64,000 nt of DNA from Mesorhizobium sp. (GTDB taxonomy: Bacteria > Pseudomonadota > Alphaproteobacteria > Rhizobiales > Rhizobiaceae): NCBI RefSeq assembly GCF_017306545.1, contig NZ_JAFKID010000006.1, positions 1 through 64,000 on the forward strand. The letters are read 5' to 3'. The position numbers were made by a program, and so were the translations under genes. Shown in pieces: positions 10,150 to 60,737 of the stretch. Positions within the stretch are counted from its first letter, which is position 1, and every line of letters begins with the position of its first letter. Below the pieces are notes generated by a model. That model did no database searches. It saw only the letters and a program-made list of their open reading frames with translations, and was not told where the DNA came from.

Positions 10150-10245
10150 TACCCCCGCCCCTAACCCCTCCCCTCAAGGGGGAGGGGAAGCTGCCGCCAG
10201 CCAAGTCCCCCTCCCCCTTGAGGGGAGGGGTTAGGGGTGGGGGTA
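10150..10245. repeat. palindromic G/C-rich intergenic repeat, family B copy 1
   Basis: A near-perfect long inverted repeat: CCCCTAACCCCTCCCCTCAAG... on the left is matched by ...TTGAGGGGAGGGGTTAGGGG on the right, around a short unrelated centre. It lies between allE and allA on the same transcript. Related copies are at 55095 and 60565. Confidence 0.85.
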
Positions 10246-13103: not shown

Positions 13104-13121
13104 CCATGGTCTGTCTGAATT

Positions 13122-13243
13122 GCCCCTCACCCTTACCCTGTCCCCATGAAGGACGGGGAGGGGGAGGCGCCGACGTCGCGGCTTCGTTCTTCTCCCCGTC
13201 TTTTACAGGGAGAGGTGCCCGGCAGGGCGCTGAGGGGCGGCGA
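13122..13243. repeat. palindromic intergenic repeat, family A copy 1
   Basis: It starts CCCCTCACCCTTACCCTGTCCCC and ends with the ...GGCAGG...CTGAGGGGCGGCG tail shared by the other family A copies. Two internal hairpins are built on CCCC(N)GGGGAG. It lies between uraH and xdhA. This copy is more diverged than those at 21315 and 29221. Confidence 0.8.
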
Positions 13244-13260: not shown

Positions 13261-14742
13261 ATGGCCAAGTTGAAGATCCGCTCCGAACTGCGCTTCATCC
13301 TCAACGGCGAGGACGTGGCGCTGAAGGACGTCGCGCCGGACGAGACGCTGCTCGATTTCCTGCGCCTGCGTCGTTCGCTGAAGGGCACCAAGGAAGGCTG
13401 CGCCGAAGGCGACTGCGGCGCCTGCACCGTGCTGGTCGGCCGCCTTTCCGCAGGCCGCCTCGTCTACGAAAGCGTCAATGCCTGCATCCGCTTCCTCGGC
13501 TCGCTCGACGGCACCCATGTGGTGACGGTCGAGCATTTGGCGGGTGAGGGTGGCCACCTGCATCCGGTGCAGCAGGCGATGGTCGATTTCCACGGCTCGC
13601 AATGCGGCTTCTGCACGCCGGGCTTCGTCATGTCGCTCTACGGCCTGTGGATGAAGTCGCCCGATCCGTCCAACGCCGAGATCGAGAAGGCGCTGCAAGG
13701 CAACCTGTGCCGCTGCACCGGCTACGAGGCGATCATGCGCGCAGCGCACGCCATCTCCACCTACGGCAAGGCGTCGAAGGACCCGCTGCTGGCCGAGCGC
13801 AAGGCGATCATGCAGCGGCTCACCGCCCTGCATGACGGCGCTCGCGTCGAGATCGGCGATGGAAAACACCGGCTGATCGTGCCGGCAGACGTCGACGATT
13901 TCGCAAAACTGCGCGATGCGCTGCCCGAGGCCACCGTCGTCGCCGGCTCGACCGACGTCGGCCTGTGGGTGACCAAGCACATGCGCGACATCACGCCGGT
14001 CATCTTCATCGGCGGGCTGGAAGGCCTGCAGTCCATCACCGAGGACAAGGGCGTCGTCACCATCGGCGCCGGCGTCACCTACACCGAGGCGCTCGGATTG
14101 CTGTCGAAGCGCATTCCGGCGCTCGGGCCGCTGATCGAGCGCATCGGCGGCCAGCAGGTGCGCAACATGGGCACCATCGGCGGCAACATAGCCAACGGCT
14201 CGCCGATCGGCGACACGCCTCCGCCGCTGATCGCACTGGGTGCGACGCTGACGCTGCGCAAGGGCAGCCGTCGCCGCACGATTCCCTTGGAAAAATTCTT
14301 CATCGCCTACGGCAAGCAGGACCGCAGGCCGGGCGAGTTCGTCGAGAGCGTCCAGGTTCCGATGCCGGCGAAGGGCGAGAAATTCGCCGTCTACAAGATC
14401 ACCAAGCGGCGCGACGAGGATATCACCGCAAGCCTCGGCGCCTTCAAGCTGGCGCTGGCGAAGGACGGGACGGTGAAGGCTATCCGCATCGCCTATGGCG
14501 GCATGGCGGCGACGCCGAAGCGGGCCTTTGCGGTCGAGAAGGCGCTGATCGGCAAGCCGTGGACGGAAGAAACCGTGCTGGCGGCGATGGAAAAATACGC
14601 CGAGGATTTTGCGCCGCTGACCGACATGCGCGCCACCGCCGATTATCGCGCGCTGGCGGCCCGCAACCTGCTCCTGCGGTTCTATGTCGAGACCACCGGC
14701 GCAGGAACGCCGGTACAGGTGACACGGGAAAGGGCGGCTTAG
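13261..14742 (+). CDS. xdhA: xanthine dehydrogenase small subunit (2Fe-2S and FAD domains)
   Basis: A 493-residue XdhA. It carries the plant-type [2Fe-2S] motif GCAEGDCGACTV (Cys47, Cys52, Cys55), the second cluster SQCGFCTPGF...GNLCRCTGYEA, and the FAD-binding domain with NMGTIGGNIANGSPIGDTPP. Together with XdhB it oxidises hypoxanthine/xanthine to urate, passing electrons through two FeS clusters to FAD and NAD. The ATG at 13261 is taken; the frame opens slightly earlier at 13249. Family A repeats lie on both sides of the gene. Confidence 0.95.
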   Translation: MAKLKIRSELRFILNGEDVALKDVAPDETLLDFLRLRRSLKGTKEGCAEGDCGACTVLVGRLSAGRLVYESVNACIRFLGSLDGTHVVTVEHLAGEGGHLHPVQQAMVDFHGSQCGFCTPGFVMSLYGLWMKSPDPSNAEIEKALQGNLCRCTGYEAIMRAAHAISTYGKASKDPLLAERKAIMQRLTALHDGARVEIGDGKHRLIVPADVDDFAKLRDALPEATVVAGSTDVGLWVTKHMRDITPVIFIGGLEGLQSITEDKGVVTIGAGVTYTEALGLLSKRIPALGPLIERIGGQQVRNMGTIGGNIANGSPIGDTPPPLIALGATLTLRKGSRRRTIPLEKFFIAYGKQDRRPGEFVESVQVPMPAKGEKFAVYKITKRRDEDITASLGAFKLALAKDGTVKAIRIAYGGMAATPKRAFAVEKALIGKPWTEETVLAAMEKYAEDFAPLTDMRATADYRALAARNLLLRFYVETTGAGTPVQVTRERAA

Positions 14743-14744
14743 CT

Positions 14745-14897
14745 TCTTCTCCCCGTCTCTATACGGGGAGAAGAAGCCGGCAGGCAGATGAGGGGCGGCG
14801 CTGAGATGGAAATGTGGAGTGCGACATTACTGACGTCGGCTCTGCTCCTCATGCGCCCCATCGGGACACCTTCTCCCCGTGAACGGGGAGAAGGAAA
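14745..14897. repeat. palindromic intergenic repeat, family A copy 2 (two half-elements)
   Basis: 14745-14802 carries CTTCTCCCCGT...ACGGGGAGAAG followed by the CCGGCAGGCAGATGAGGGGC tail. 14851-14897 carries a second CACCTTCTCCCCGTGAACGGGGAGAAGG hairpin in inverse context. They fill nearly the whole xdhA-xdhB gap and end just before the xdhB ribosome-binding region. Confidence 0.82.
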
Positions 14898-14909
14898 GAA
14901 AGGCACACG

Positions 14910-17264
14910 ATGACCAAGCACACGCCCAACCTGAAAGCGGCCAGGATCGTCGGCGGCGTCCATGCCTCCAACCCCCACGATTCCGCCCACAAGCACGTTT
15001 CCGGCACGGCCGTCTATGTCGATGATATCACCGAGCCCGCCGGCACGCTGCATGCCGGCCTCGGCCTCGCCACCGTCGCGCACGGCAAGATCAAGTCGAT
15101 CGACCTTTCGGCGGTGAAGGCAGCACCAGGCGTCGTCGCCGTGCTGACTGCGAAGGACGTGCCGGGCGACAACGACATTTCGCCGTCGGGCATGCACGAC
15201 GACCCGATCCTCGCCGACGGCGAGGTGCTGTTCCACGGCCAGCCGGTGTTCTGCGTCGTCGCCGAGACACGCGACCAGGCGCGCCGCGCCGCAAGGCTGG
15301 CGAAGATCGAATACCGCGAACTCGATGCCGTCATCGACATCTGGAACCTCGACGCCGAAACGCACAAACAGGTGACCACGCCGCTGGTGCTCGACCGCGG
15401 CGACGCCAAGGCCAACCTGGAAAAAGCGCCGCGCCGCATCAAGGGTCGCATGCGCCTCGGCGGGCAGGACCATTTCTATCTCGAGGGCCAGGTCTCGCTG
15501 GCGGTGCCCGGCGAGGACGACGAGGTCACCGTCCACTGCTCGACGCAGGGGCCGAGCGAGACGCAGCACATGATCGCCCATGCGCTCGGCGTGCCGAGCC
15601 ATGCGGTGACGGTGGAGGTTCGCCGCATGGGCGGCGGCTTCGGCGGCAAGGAAACGCAGGCCAACCAGTGCGCCGTGCTGGCGGCAATCGCCGCCAAGAA
15701 GCTGAAGCGCGCCGTCAAGCTGAGGCTCGACCGCGACGAGGACATGACCGCCACCGGCAAGCGGCACGATTTCGCCATCGACTACGACGTCGGCTTCGAC
15801 GACGAGGGCCGCATCCTCGCCATCGACTACACCTTCGCGCTTCGAGCCGGCTTCTCGGCCGATCTTTCCGGCCCGGTCGGCGACCGCGCGCTGTTCCACT
15901 GCGACAACGCCTATTTCTTCCCGCACGTCCATGCGAAGTCGGCGCCGCTTTTCACCAACACCGTCTCCAACACCGCCTTCCGCGGCTTCGGCGGCCCGCA
16001 GGGCATGGTCGGCGCCGAGCGCGTCATCGACGAGATCGCCTTCGCGGTTGGCAAGGACCCGCTGGAAATCCGCAAGTTCAATTTCTACGACCCGATGGGC
16101 GCCAAGGGCAGCCGTAACGTCACGCCCTACCACCAGACCGTCGAGGACTGCATCATCCAGCGCATCGTCGCCGAGCTGGAGGAAAGTTCGGACTACGCCC
16201 GCCGTCGCCGCGAGATCGCCGCCTTCAACGCCAACAGCCGCTTCGTCAAGCGCGGCCTGGCGCTGACGCCGGTGAAGTTCGGCATCTCCTTCACCAAGAC
16301 GGAGTCCAACCAGGCCGGCGCGCTGGTGCATGTCTATACGGATGGCTCCGTGCACATGAACCATGGCGGCACCGAAATGGGCCAGGGCCTGCACATGAAG
16401 GTGGCGCAGGTGGTGGCCGAGGAATTCCAGATCGACATCGATCGGGTGAAGATCACCGCCACCACGACGGCCAAGGTGCCCAACACCTCGCCGACGGCCG
16501 CTTCCTCGGGCGCCGACCTGAACGGCATGGCGGCGCAGGACGCCGCCCGCCAGATCAAGGACCGGCTGATCGACTTCGCCGCCGAGACGCATCAGATTCC
16601 GCGCGACCAGGTGGTGTTCCTGCCCAACCGGGTGCGCATCGGCAATCAGGAGATTTCCTTCAACGAACTGGTGCGGCAGGCCTACATCGCCCGCGTGCAG
16701 CTTTCGGCGGCCGGTTTCTACAAGACGCCGAAGATTCATTGGGACCGCGCCAAGGGGCGCGGCCACGCCTTCTACTACTTCGCCTACGGCGCGGCCTGCT
16801 CGGAAGTCTCGGTCGATACGCTGACCGGCGAATATGTGGTCGAGCGCACCGATATCCTGCACGACGCCGGCCGCTCGCTGAACAAGGCCATCGACATCGG
16901 CCAGGTCGAGGGCGGCTTCATCCAGGGCATGGGCTGGCTGACCACCGAGGAGCTGTGGTGGGACGGCAAGGGCCGGCTCCGCACCCATGCGCCGTCCACC
17001 TACAAGATCCCGCTGGCCTCCGACCGGCCGAAGATCTTCAACGTCGCGCTGACCGACTGGAGCCAGGCCTACGAGCCGACCGTCCACCGGTCCAAGGCGG
17101 TGGGCGAGCCGCCGCTGCCGTTGGGGCTTTCGGTGCTGCATGCGCTGTCCGATGCCGTCGCCAGCGTCGCCGACCACAGGATCTGCCCGCGCCTCGACGC
17201 CCCGGCGACGCCCGAGCGCGTGCTGATGGCGGTCGAGCGGCTGAAGGCGGAAGCGGCGAAATAG
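14910..17264 (+). CDS. xdhB: xanthine dehydrogenase large (molybdopterin) subunit
   Basis: A 784-residue XdhB with the molybdenum-cofactor signature set: QGPSETQHMIAHALG, GGGFGGKE (about residue 241), FRGFGGPQGM, the HGGTEMGQGLHMK motif and AVGEPPLPLG with the catalytic Glu at about residue 733. It forms the heterotetramer with XdhA and needs the XdhC product for insertion of sulfurated cofactor. The start ATG at 14910 follows the repeat at 14745-14897. The gene order xdhA-xdhB-xdhC is standard. Confidence 0.96.
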   Translation: MTKHTPNLKAARIVGGVHASNPHDSAHKHVSGTAVYVDDITEPAGTLHAGLGLATVAHGKIKSIDLSAVKAAPGVVAVLTAKDVPGDNDISPSGMHDDPILADGEVLFHGQPVFCVVAETRDQARRAARLAKIEYRELDAVIDIWNLDAETHKQVTTPLVLDRGDAKANLEKAPRRIKGRMRLGGQDHFYLEGQVSLAVPGEDDEVTVHCSTQGPSETQHMIAHALGVPSHAVTVEVRRMGGGFGGKETQANQCAVLAAIAAKKLKRAVKLRLDRDEDMTATGKRHDFAIDYDVGFDDEGRILAIDYTFALRAGFSADLSGPVGDRALFHCDNAYFFPHVHAKSAPLFTNTVSNTAFRGFGGPQGMVGAERVIDEIAFAVGKDPLEIRKFNFYDPMGAKGSRNVTPYHQTVEDCIIQRIVAELEESSDYARRRREIAAFNANSRFVKRGLALTPVKFGISFTKTESNQAGALVHVYTDGSVHMNHGGTEMGQGLHMKVAQVVAEEFQIDIDRVKITATTTAKVPNTSPTAASSGADLNGMAAQDAARQIKDRLIDFAAETHQIPRDQVVFLPNRVRIGNQEISFNELVRQAYIARVQLSAAGFYKTPKIHWDRAKGRGHAFYYFAYGAACSEVSVDTLTGEYVVERTDILHDAGRSLNKAIDIGQVEGGFIQGMGWLTTEELWWDGKGRLRTHAPSTYKIPLASDRPKIFNVALTDWSQAYEPTVHRSKAVGEPPLPLGLSVLHALSDAVASVADHRICPRLDAPATPERVLMAVERLKAEAAK

Positions 17265-17326: not shown

Positions 17327-18331
17327 ATGACGACGAATGTGCAGGACCTGAAGGATTTTCTTGGCGGGGCCGGGCCGGTGGCGCTGGTCGAGGTCGCCGC
17401 CACCAAGGGCTCGACGCCGCGCGAGACGGGCGCCTACATGCTGGTGTCGTGCGCCGCCATCCATGGCACCATCGGCGGCGGCCAATTGGAATACATGGCC
17501 ATCGACAAAGCGAGGCAGGTGCTGCGTTCGCAGGCGGCGAAGGAGGCCGGCAATGCCGGTGCCGCCCCTAACCTGCCTGCCGGCATCCTCTCCCCGCAGG
17601 CGGGGAGAGGCGAGCTCGCGCGACCGTTGGTGTCCCCCTCGCCCCGTTTACGGGGAGAGGGTAAGGGTGAGGGGCAGCGCGAACGCTTCAACGCGGGCGC
17701 TATCCTCGACATTCCCCTCGGCCCGGAGATCGGCCAGTGCTGCGGCGGCCGCGTCGAGGTGGCGATCCGCCCGGTCGACGCCGCTGTTGCCGCCGGCCTG
17801 ATCGCGGCGGCCGATAGGCAGGAGCAATGCCTGCCGCATCTCTACATCTTCGGTGGCGGTCATGTCGGCAAGGCGCTGGCGGCTGCGGTCGCCCTGCTGC
17901 CGGTGCATGCCGTCGTTGTCGAGACGCGCGTCGAAGAGCTTGAAGGCATGCCGTCCGGCGTCGAAACGCGGCTGACGCCGATGCCGGAAGCGGCGGTGCG
18001 CGCCGCACCTCCCGGCTCGGCCTTCGCCGTGCTGACCCACGACCATGCGCTGGATTTCCTCATCGCCGCCGAGGCGCTGAAGCGCAGCGACACCGCCTAT
18101 GTCGGCATGATCGGTTCCAAGACCAAGAAGGCGACGTTCAGAAGCTGGTTCCTGAAGACCGCCGGCGGCACGGAAGCGGAATTTGCGCGGCTCGTTTCGC
18201 CCATCGGTGGCGACGCCGTGAAGGACAAGCGCCCGCCCGTCATCGCGGCGCTGGCCGCCGCCGAAATGATGACGGCGCTGGCGCTGCATGAGGTCAAGGC
18301 GGCTTCGGAGGTTGTAGAAGCCAAGCGTTGA
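17327..18331 (+). CDS. xdhC: xanthine dehydrogenase accessory protein XdhC with in-frame repeat insertion
   Basis: A 334-residue XdhC, which binds molybdenum cofactor and delivers it to xanthine dehydrogenase. Start: ATG at 17327, with TGGAGG 6 bp before. Family blocks are clear on both sides of an oddity: GSTPRETGAYMLV...GTIGGGQLEYMAI at the front; then DIPLGPEIGQCCGGRVEV, LYIFGGGHVGKALA and YVGMIGSKTKKATF behind. Between them, residues ~79-118 (LPAGILSPQAGRGE...RLRGEGKGEGQRE) are a translated copy of the family A intergenic repeat, with no stop and no frameshift. The insertion falls in the linker after QVLRSQAAKEAG and should leave both domains intact. Confidence 0.93.
   Translation: MTTNVQDLKDFLGGAGPVALVEVAATKGSTPRETGAYMLVSCAAIHGTIGGGQLEYMAIDKARQVLRSQAAKEAGNAGAAPNLPAGILSPQAGRGELARPLVSPSPRLRGEGKGEGQRERFNAGAILDIPLGPEIGQCCGGRVEVAIRPVDAAVAAGLIAAADRQEQCLPHLYIFGGGHVGKALAAAVALLPVHAVVVETRVEELEGMPSGVETRLTPMPEAAVRAAPPGSAFAVLTHDHALDFLIAAEALKRSDTAYVGMIGSKTKKATFRSWFLKTAGGTEAEFARLVSPIGGDAVKDKRPPVIAALAAAEMMTALALHEVKAASEVVEAKR
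17561..17680. repeat. palindromic repeat family A copy 3, inside the xdhC reading frame
   Basis: The DNA reads GCCGCCCCTAACCTGCCTGC...CATCCTCTCCCCG...CGGGGAGAGG, then ...CCCCGTTTACGGGGAGAGGG TAAGGGTGAGGGGC, i.e. the intergenic family A element in reverse orientation to the copy at 21315. It is translated in frame as part of XdhC (residues ~79-118). The exact ends cannot be fixed without an uninterrupted relative. Confidence 0.88.
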
Positions 18332-21280: not shown

Positions 21281-21314
21281 TGACTTCGGATGATGTGAAG
21301 ACCTTCCGGCCTTT

Positions 21315-21436
21315 GCGCTGCCCCTCACCCTTACCCTCTCCCCGTAAACGGGGAGAGGGGGGCGCCGACGTTGCAGCTTCTCTCCTCTCCCCGTTTACGG
21401 GGAGAGGATGCCGGCAGGCAGATGAGGGGCGGCGCG
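21315..21436. repeat. palindromic intergenic repeat, family A copy 4
   Basis: It contains CCCTCTCCCCGTAAACGGGG AGAGGG, then CCTCTCCCCGTTTACGGGGA GAGG, then the CCGGCAGGCAGATGAGGGGC tail. It is one of the best preserved copies, with two hairpins and complementary terminal halves (GCCCCTCACC and GATGAGGGGC). It lies between puuD and guaD. Confidence 0.9.
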
Positions 21437-23886: not shown

Positions 23887-24022
23887 CGCGCCGCCCCTCA
23901 TCCGCCTGCCGGCGCCTTCTCCCCGTGAACGGGGAGAAGGTGATTGGCCGCGCCGGCGCAGCCTCCTTCCTCGCCCCGTTTACGGGGAGAGGATGCCGGC
24001 AGGCAGGTGAGGGGCGGCGCCG
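23887..24022. repeat. palindromic intergenic repeat, family A copy 5
   Basis: Two hairpins again: CCTTCTCCCCGTGAACGGGG AGAAGG and CGCCCCGTTTACGGGGAGAGG. Ends are CGCCGCCCCTCATCCGCCTG and CAGGCAGGTGAGGGGCGGCG, which are complementary over most of their length. It lies between the UPF0303 gene and gckA. Confidence 0.88.
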
Positions 24023-24058
24023 GCCGGCGGCCGGTTTGCGAAGCGAGGATTTTTCGGC

Positions 24059-29195: not shown

Positions 29196-29220
29196 GAAAG
29201 ATATTCCATCCGATGTTGGC

Positions 29221-29346
29221 GCTGCGCCTCACCCTTACCCTCTCCCCGCAAGGACGGGGAGAGGGGAATCGCCGATGGCGCAACTGCTCTCCTCTCCCCG
29301 TTCTCACGGGGAGAGGATGCCGGCAGGCAGGTGAGGGGCGGCGCTG
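29221..29346. repeat. palindromic intergenic repeat, family A copy 6
   Basis: It begins GCTGCGCCTCACCCTTACCC TCTCCCCG and ends GAGGATGCCGGCAGGCAGGT GAGGGGCGGCGC, with two CCCC...GGGGAGAGG hairpins. It lies between the COG0523 GTPase gene and the WD40 gene, on the transcribed strand of both. Confidence 0.9.
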
Positions 29347-51872: not shown

Positions 51873-51975
51873 GAGCATTTCCAGCAGAAGTGTGAAACGG
51901 TTTTGCGTCCGGAAATGCGCCCAAATCAAAGAGATAGAGCGGTGCCGACGACTCCGTTCAAACAGGAACCGCTCT
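51873..51975. repeat. dispersed ~100-bp repeat, family C copy 1
   Basis: Begins GAGCATTTCCAGCAGAAGTG, continues TGAAACGGTTTTGCGTCCGG and ends GGAACCGCTCT. A second copy at 58595-58696 is nearly identical for the first ~65 bp. Terminal parts are inversely related (GAGC.../...GCTC). The last bases overlap the stop codon of the small minus-strand gene at 51974. Confidence 0.88.
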
Positions 51976-55073: not shown

Positions 55074-55094
55074 AAAGGCGGCTTCCAAGGCGGT

Positions 55095-55291
55095 GGACCC
55101 CCACCCCTAACCCCTCCCCTCAAGGGGGAGGGGGACTTCGGGGCATTGCCACGCCACGCCGACGCAGACAATTTTGAACGAAACGGCGGCGTCGGCGTCT
55201 CCCTCCCCCTTGAGGGGAGGGAACAAGGGTGGGGGTACTGCGCCATATGCGATAGCCCTCCCCCTTGCGGGGAGGGGACAGGGGTGGGGGT
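55095..55291. repeat. palindromic G/C-rich intergenic repeat, family B copy 2 (one and a half units)
   Basis: 55095-55236 has CACCCCTAACCCCTCCCCTC at the left and CCCTTGAGGGGAGGGAACAA GGGTGGGGG at the right; 55255-55291 is a further half (CCCTCCCCCTTGCGGGGAGG). The interior GACGGCG-like stretch (GAACGAAACGGCGGCGTCGG CGTC) is shared with copy 3 at 60565. It fills the Lrp-gyrB gap. Confidence 0.87.
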
Positions 55292-55318
55292 GCGTCGCCG
55301 GTAAGGGGACGACGCCCC

Positions 55319-58594: not shown

Positions 58595-58696
58595 GAGCAT
58601 TTCCAGCAAAAGTGTGAAACGGTTTTGCGTCCGGAAATGCGGCCAAATCAAAGGAACGGAGCGGTTCGCAGGTTCTGTAAAAATCAGAACCGCTCT
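58595..58696. repeat. dispersed ~100-bp repeat, family C copy 2
   Basis: GAGCATTTCCAGCAAAAGTG TGAAACGGTTTTGCGTCCGG continues into CAAATCAAAGGAACGGAGCG and ends CAGAACCGCTCT. The first 60 bases differ from copy 1 at 51873 at only a few positions. It occupies a third of the 298-bp gap before the P450 gene. Confidence 0.88.
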
Positions 58697-60564: not shown

Positions 60565-60706
60565 ACCCCCCCCCCGCCCCTAACCCCTCCCTACAAGGGG
60601 GAGGGAGACTTTACGGCAACGATGCCATCCATCGCGGTGACGATCTTGGATGAGACGGCGGCGCCGGCGTCTCCCTCCCCCTTGAGGGGAAGGGACAGGG
60701 GGGTAT
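60565..60706. repeat. palindromic G/C-rich intergenic repeat, family B copy 3
   Basis: It begins with a C10 run and CGCCCCTAACCCCTCCCTAC, then has GACGGCGGCGCCGGCGTCTC CCTCCCCCTTGAGG near its end, matching copy 2 at 55095. Downstream of acyP and just before the yraN stop on the opposite strand. Confidence 0.87.
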
Positions 60707-60737
60707 GCGACGGAGCAGCTCCGACAGACCAACCTCT

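Follow-up and report, generated by a model that had tools for sequence, protein, structure and literature searches.

How a palindromic repeat can lie inside xdhC and leave the reading frame open is the question raised by a 64,000-nucleotide stretch of Mesorhizobium sp. DNA (contig NZ_JAFKID010000006.1; hereafter the window). A preliminary description, made from the letters alone, had placed a repeat seen between genes elsewhere (family A) in frame at positions 17561-17680, where it would add some 40 residues between intact XdhC blocks, with no stop and no shift. It likened the case to the Rickettsia palindromic elements and proposed that such a palindrome is tolerated in a linker.

The family A element in xdhC

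The in-frame repeat is real, and only its start moves slightly, giving 17559-17680 (Table 1). In an alignment of 26 nearly complete copies from this genome, inspected by eye, family A elements run from G(C/T)GCYGCCCCTC to GAGGGGCRGCGC and carry imperfect terminal inverted repeats (GCGCYGCCCCTCA / TGAGGGGCRGCGC), as MITEs do. Their architecture is bipartite, with two hairpins and a short spacer between the terminal inverted repeats. Folded as RNA, the xdhC element beats 200 of 200 dinucleotide shuffles (z -3.3), and folded as DNA it has a z of -2.2, with 5 of 200 shuffles equally good.

The insert accounts for about 41 residues (78-118) of the 334-residue product. Both Pfam domains, XdhC_CoxI (residues 16-70) and the Rossmann domain XdhC_C (172-314), lie outside it, and the gene is otherwise intact. 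The protein scores 274.8 bits against the equivalog model TIGR02964 (cut-off 161.6), its nearest named relatives are Mesorhizobium XdhC proteins with up to 70% identity, and the XdhC-type structures 3on5 and 2we7/2we8 take the top ranks in Foldseek. In the AlphaFold model, residues 81-120 have a mean pLDDT of 41-51 per ten-residue block, and the flanking domains are mostly above 90.

Table 1. Features of xdhC and family A copies in the window.
Feature	Position	Strand	Basis
xdhC with insert, 334 codons plus stop	17327-18331	+	Stop-free translation; TIGR02964; Pfam XdhC_CoxI and XdhC_C
Family A palindromic element, 122 bp, in frame	17559-17680	+	Alignment of 26 near full-length own-genome copies
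Left hairpin of xdhC element (CCTCTCCCCGC AG GCGGGGAGAGG)	17587-17610	+	Sequence; DNA fold
Right hairpin of xdhC element (CCCTCGCCCCGTTTACGGGGAGAGGG)	17635-17662	+	Sequence; DNA fold (centroid)
Family A copy	21309-21433	-	85% over query 6-131; repeat pairs I1, I4
Family A copy	29215-29342	-	83% over query 6-129
Family A copy made of two inverted left-type halves	23887-24020		Repeat pairs I5, I6, D1
Family A copy, diverged	13121-13243		Repeat pairs D1, D3
Family A halves directly upstream of ORF 14910-17264	14727-14897		Repeat pairs D1, D2

The insert belongs to a repeat family found elsewhere, as had been proposed. A 135-bp query (17556-17690) gave at least 65 matches in its own genome (E <= 0.001; 40 of 118 first-look candidates scored), some places being matched on both strands. 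Parts of the xdhC element pair at 90% with 21309-21370 and at 89% with 23969-24024 elsewhere in the window. Family A is a palindromic repeat dispersed in coding and other DNA alike, as Rickettsia palindromic elements are.

No target-site duplication is evident by eye in filled/empty alignments or in the 26-copy alignment, none of which contains a closely related empty site for comparison. The RAYT transposase domain Y1_Tnp (PF01797) has no match in the window's genome and is found in 5 of 14 control genomes, and RAYT was rejected as the mover. The GTAG/CGTC tag of 20-40 bp REPs is absent from the family A ends in the 26-copy alignment, as judged by inspection and for this family only. Rfam matches near the palindromes (microRNA families and one sRNA family) all fall below the gathering score and were taken as chance. 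The window also holds a second palindromic repeat family (CCCCCACCCCTAACCCCTCCCCTCAAGGGGGAGGGG type), with inverted pairs at 10150-10245, 55089-55299 and 60571-60716, and a 71-nt direct repeat, 92% alike, at 51873-51943 and 58595-58665.

Occupants of the XdhC linker in relatives

We compared the XdhC linker across 110 loci, 30 from a genome search and 80 from named genomes; the two sets partly overlap and comprise 98 different core sequences. Two loci in which the N-terminal part is missing (L056 and L131) were dropped, and in all 108 that remain the two XdhC parts stand in one frame with no stop between them. At the equivalents of residues 70 to 122, 55 loci have 17 residues or fewer, and the other 53 carry a long insert of 25 to 75 residues, in frame and stop-free in every case. 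Assigned from patterns in the translated linker and by eye, the classes comprise 4 loci with family A oriented as in the window, 1 with A reversed (L107), 31 with B, 15 with C, 2 others and 55 with none. Class C is mixed (L114, L115 and L119 are its least sure members), and L113 and L120 fit no class. Relatives have either no insert or another insert at the same place, which supports the proposal of an RPE-like palindrome tolerated in a linker; the use of this linker by several families and in both orientations goes beyond that proposal. The pattern that would speak against it, the same residues common to relatives without DNA likeness to intergenic copies, is not seen.

The other families are dispersed repeats as well. 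With up to 40 candidates scored per genome, B is dispersed in all 11 genomes searched (at least 31-100 matches each), C in five of five searched that carry it in XdhC (at least 17-79) and E in five of five (at least 24-162). Searched with the C query, the window's own genome yields at least 40 matches, and those listed cover no more than 62 of its 146 bases. Folding of representative inserts is likewise better than that of shuffles with the same dinucleotides: z is -2.6 for B (1 of 200 as good), -8.3 for C and -10.6 for E.

On a tree of the flanking XdhC parts, with the linker excluded, no fewer than 31 changes of linker state are required; the tree was made by a quick method and 42 of its 95 inner branches are open, and the starred branches alone force only at least three changes for B and at least five for C. 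A single four-row clade (support 99; three Aminobacter genomes and one named Mesorhizobium) holds A reversed, B, C and an unassigned insert. Not all of this turnover is new insertion. The B inserts of XdhC are 81-88% alike across species and 70-85% alike to the one to three copies sampled from their own genomes (seven genomes), although in G016 the cross-species excess is only slight (86.1 vs 85.0). Because they are closer across species than within a genome, many B cases are inherited or exchanged genes rather than new insertions, and part of the linker turnover is therefore inheritance, gene exchange or loss. The short linkers of L078 (SPLEGGREARIEV), L090 and L098 are possible deletion scars.

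In-frame copies in other proteins

The preliminary description had also suggested looking for other proteins of the genome with the same peptide, and further in-frame copies of the repeat were found. In the window's genome (G000) we examined the sequence around 30 family A places and then another 20 stretches, of which 15 were chosen for A (some re-covering earlier places) and 5 for B. With Pfam or NCBIfam support, family A lies in frame in XdhC, a PcrA/UvrD-type helicase, a biotin carboxylase of the MccA type (with the element reversed), FtsY and CobN, and family B in IleRS and a ligase-associated DEXH (Lhr-type) helicase. For FtsY (L030) the domain support is on the C-terminal side and the N-terminal anchor comes from likeness to other FtsY; by likeness to L030, family A is also present in FtsY of six same-genus genomes (G001, G002, G003, G008, G010 and G019). 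The N-terminal region of L030 seems to contain both A-type and B-like stretches. Elsewhere in the genus, a fused Mo-hydroxylase carries family A in the linker that joins its iron-sulphur and molybdenum parts (L142-L148, L184 and L192, the domain scan covering L144 only), and B-type peptides are in frame in Pfam-supported hydantoinase-type (L336, G020) and GlyS proteins (L346 in G003, L347 in G020).

Many frames across elements were rejected. In a first scan, 9 of 10 long ORFs had no Pfam match and were put down to antisense or chance frames, and in a second set of 17, ten were scanned and six had no match. L280 (plus strand) was not counted, as Pfam tRNA-synt_His matches only downstream of the element, nor was L019, an ABC transporter in which the element precedes the domains and probably the start. 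Outside the domain scan were the other seven frames of the second set and, from around the family A places examined first, those of L024, L027 (contig end) and L028 plus another two frames from each of L001 and L030.

PcrA has a comparable linker. Between LLAQRP and NICCVGDDDQ, each of the 23 same-genus genomes searched contains additional sequence, in the loop before GDDDQSIYGWRGA, which we take to lie between helicase motifs II and III and which falls between residues 237 and 240 of DNA helicase II (3lfu_A). In 22 of the 23 this linker keeps the frame, contains no stop and measures 39-196 residues, the longest being suspect; in G018 (L227) it has an undetermined base and a frame break, and in G001, G007 and G013 there are stops in the matched stretch, outside the linker. 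The 196-residue linker of G001 (L228) has a long poly-proline run and a poly-glycine run and is possibly an assembly artefact. Among 14 outgroup genomes searched, the five loci examined have one residue at this loop. By peptide, the PcrA linkers include one A, seven B and three E, and 11 fit no family. DNA matches back B in five (G002, G011, G012, G016 and G022) and E in G014, G015 and G001, the query being the G014 copy itself.

CobN has A in the window's genome, and among the 14 other same-genus genomes in which both sides were found, six have an E peptide in two halves and two a partial one; the CobN stretches of G001, G003 and G015 match E at the DNA level. The IleRS loop has 51 residues (B) in the window's genome versus 5 in 22 of 22 other same-genus genomes; two outgroups have 16 and 7, and G037 (L288), from another family of the order, has 40 residues at the same loop, with a GC-rich CTCTCCCCGCGCGCGGGGAGAG hairpin. 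The biotin carboxylase insert was seen only in the window's genome, the other 22 same-genus loci having 22-26 residues (L256 appears off frame in the script).

Origin of the inserts and related systems

The xdhC insert is best explained as a non-autonomous palindromic element of MITE type, with two hairpins between short terminal inverted repeats. More generally, we consider it highly probable (roughly 0.87) that MITE-like palindromes insert repeatedly and that copies without a stop which happen to keep the frame of a tolerant loop are retained as neutral spacers. Elements would insert throughout the genome, and insertions into genes would persist only in a tolerant loop, in frame and with no stop in that frame. 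The insert would be translated as a flexible, nearly neutral spacer whose sequence hardly matters, and later be removed by in-frame deletion or replaced. Both the translation of the inserts and the mobility of the elements are inferred here, the latter from copy number and patchy occurrence. The XdhC linker and the loops of PcrA, CobN and perhaps IleRS would be used again and again because few sites in conserved proteins tolerate some 40 extra residues. This suggests that certain protein loops in these rhizobia are safe landing sites for selfish DNA.

An improbable alternative is that the linkers are true target sites, through a transposase or replication-linked preference or through exchange of one family for another when similar arms recombine. 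At the XdhC linker we do find more than one family, and both orientations, and at one PcrA loop A, B and E; runs of the type CCCTCCCC..GGGGAGGG are common to the families. However, the same picture is expected from selection acting on random insertions, the entry points of family A in XdhC seem to lie several codons from those of B and C, and no target-site signature was found. A related and broader idea, conceivable but rather unlikely, is that the loops of XdhC, PcrA, CobN and perhaps IleRS or FtsY are standing docking sites, where unrelated families succeed one another in frame by directed insertion or arm-to-arm replacement; core enzymes of Mesorhizobium and its relatives would thus carry a rapidly exchanged cassette of selfish DNA.

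It is highly improbable that the inserts have been recruited for a function, such as tuning the activity or partner binding of XdhC or PcrA. The long retention in XdhC and the contrast between the 39 to 196 residues of the PcrA loop in 22 of 23 same-genus genomes and the single residue of the five outgroup loci might be read in this way, but sequence, length and family are freely exchanged, and 55 of 108 XdhC genes do without a long insert. Moreover, the B inserts of XdhC (24 different rows) diverge evenly over the three codon positions (0.161, 0.155 and 0.170), whereas the XdhC parts that flank them have a third-position excess (0.10, 0.10, 0.335 and 0.12, 0.07, 0.35). Class C inserts (13 rows) have a mild one (0.326, 0.347, 0.412). 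From these divergences, xdhC seems to need the frame more than the peptide.

That the insert is transcribed and not translated, being skipped by ribosome bypass or excised as a cryptic intervening element with the aid of its strong hairpin, is barely credible. The element folds well as RNA, and in the B inserts of XdhC (19 of 31 rows) the arms diverge by 0.084 and 0.060 versus 0.283 for the spacer, at all codon positions. However, 13 other B copies, one of them from IleRS, have arms at 0.119 and 0.165 versus 0.348 for the spacer, so that arm conservation is a property of the family and we make no special claim of selection on the arms in XdhC. RNAalifold gave double changes in 2 of 37 pairs and a covariation term of +0.37. 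Skipping would also make frame and stops irrelevant, yet all 53 long XdhC inserts keep both, even though the frame used by xdhC (+0) is stop-free in only 5 of the 26 aligned family A copies and closed in 21. This open-frame filter is marked for xdhC only, because the frames used by pcrA (+2) and biotin carboxylase (-2) are stop-free in 16 and 17 of the 26; given these three different frames, a shared frame pair or frame preference among coding family A copies was rejected. Finally, the suspect PcrA linkers L228, with its poly-proline run, and L227, with its undetermined base and frame break, may look like an assembly artefact, but as a general account this has practically negligible probability, since inserts recur across many assemblies, including the single-contig genomes G003, G011, G021 and G033 and a record titled complete genome (L062).

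Repetitive elements of related kinds are well documented. Protein-coding palindromes are best known from the reduced genomes of Rickettsia and Wolbachia and are often ascribed to weak selection in those genomes, and the Rhizobium-specific intergenic mosaic elements (RIME), which the present families resemble by description, are large palindromes dispersed in rhizobia and described as intergenic. Rickettsia palindromic elements are reported to form several families that are dispersed and also stand in frame within conserved proteins (PMC3733652, PMC2229807, PMC10969869). The elements described here likewise form several palindromic families that are dispersed and add residues in frame to conserved proteins, a likeness of description. 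They differ in occurring in large, GC-rich rhizobial genomes and in that homologous loops of one protein are occupied by different families across species. GTAG/CGTC REPs also lie within ORFs of several species, where they occur in UvrD/REP helicase and tRNA synthetases among others, and recB of two Xanthomonas species has different REPs at about the same site (PMC3733652). Those REPs are tagged and 20-40 bp long, whereas the bipartite family A element measures 122 bp and has different ends, in a genome with no RAYT match. ERIC, Correia, the Yersinia palindrome and the Coxiella QMITE are short and non-autonomous, with terminal inverted repeats, open frames and sometimes in-frame fusions (PMC2229807, PMC10969869, PMC5896051). 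Our elements resemble them in these features and differ in lying in the interior of several core enzymes, with turnover of families at one site.

The kind of event is therefore already known from Rickettsia elements and intragenic REPs. A literature search returned no account of in-frame palindromes for Mesorhizobium, nor of a genus in which different families occupy the same loops; multi-family occupation of such loops in rhizobia was likewise absent from the papers searched. Core proteins of large-genome rhizobia with different families at the same loops make the entry of selfish DNA into proteins testable in culturable, engineerable bacteria. The inserts also mark natural insertion-tolerant sites in XdhC, PcrA, CobN and IleRS, and explain odd low-complexity linkers of predicted proteins.
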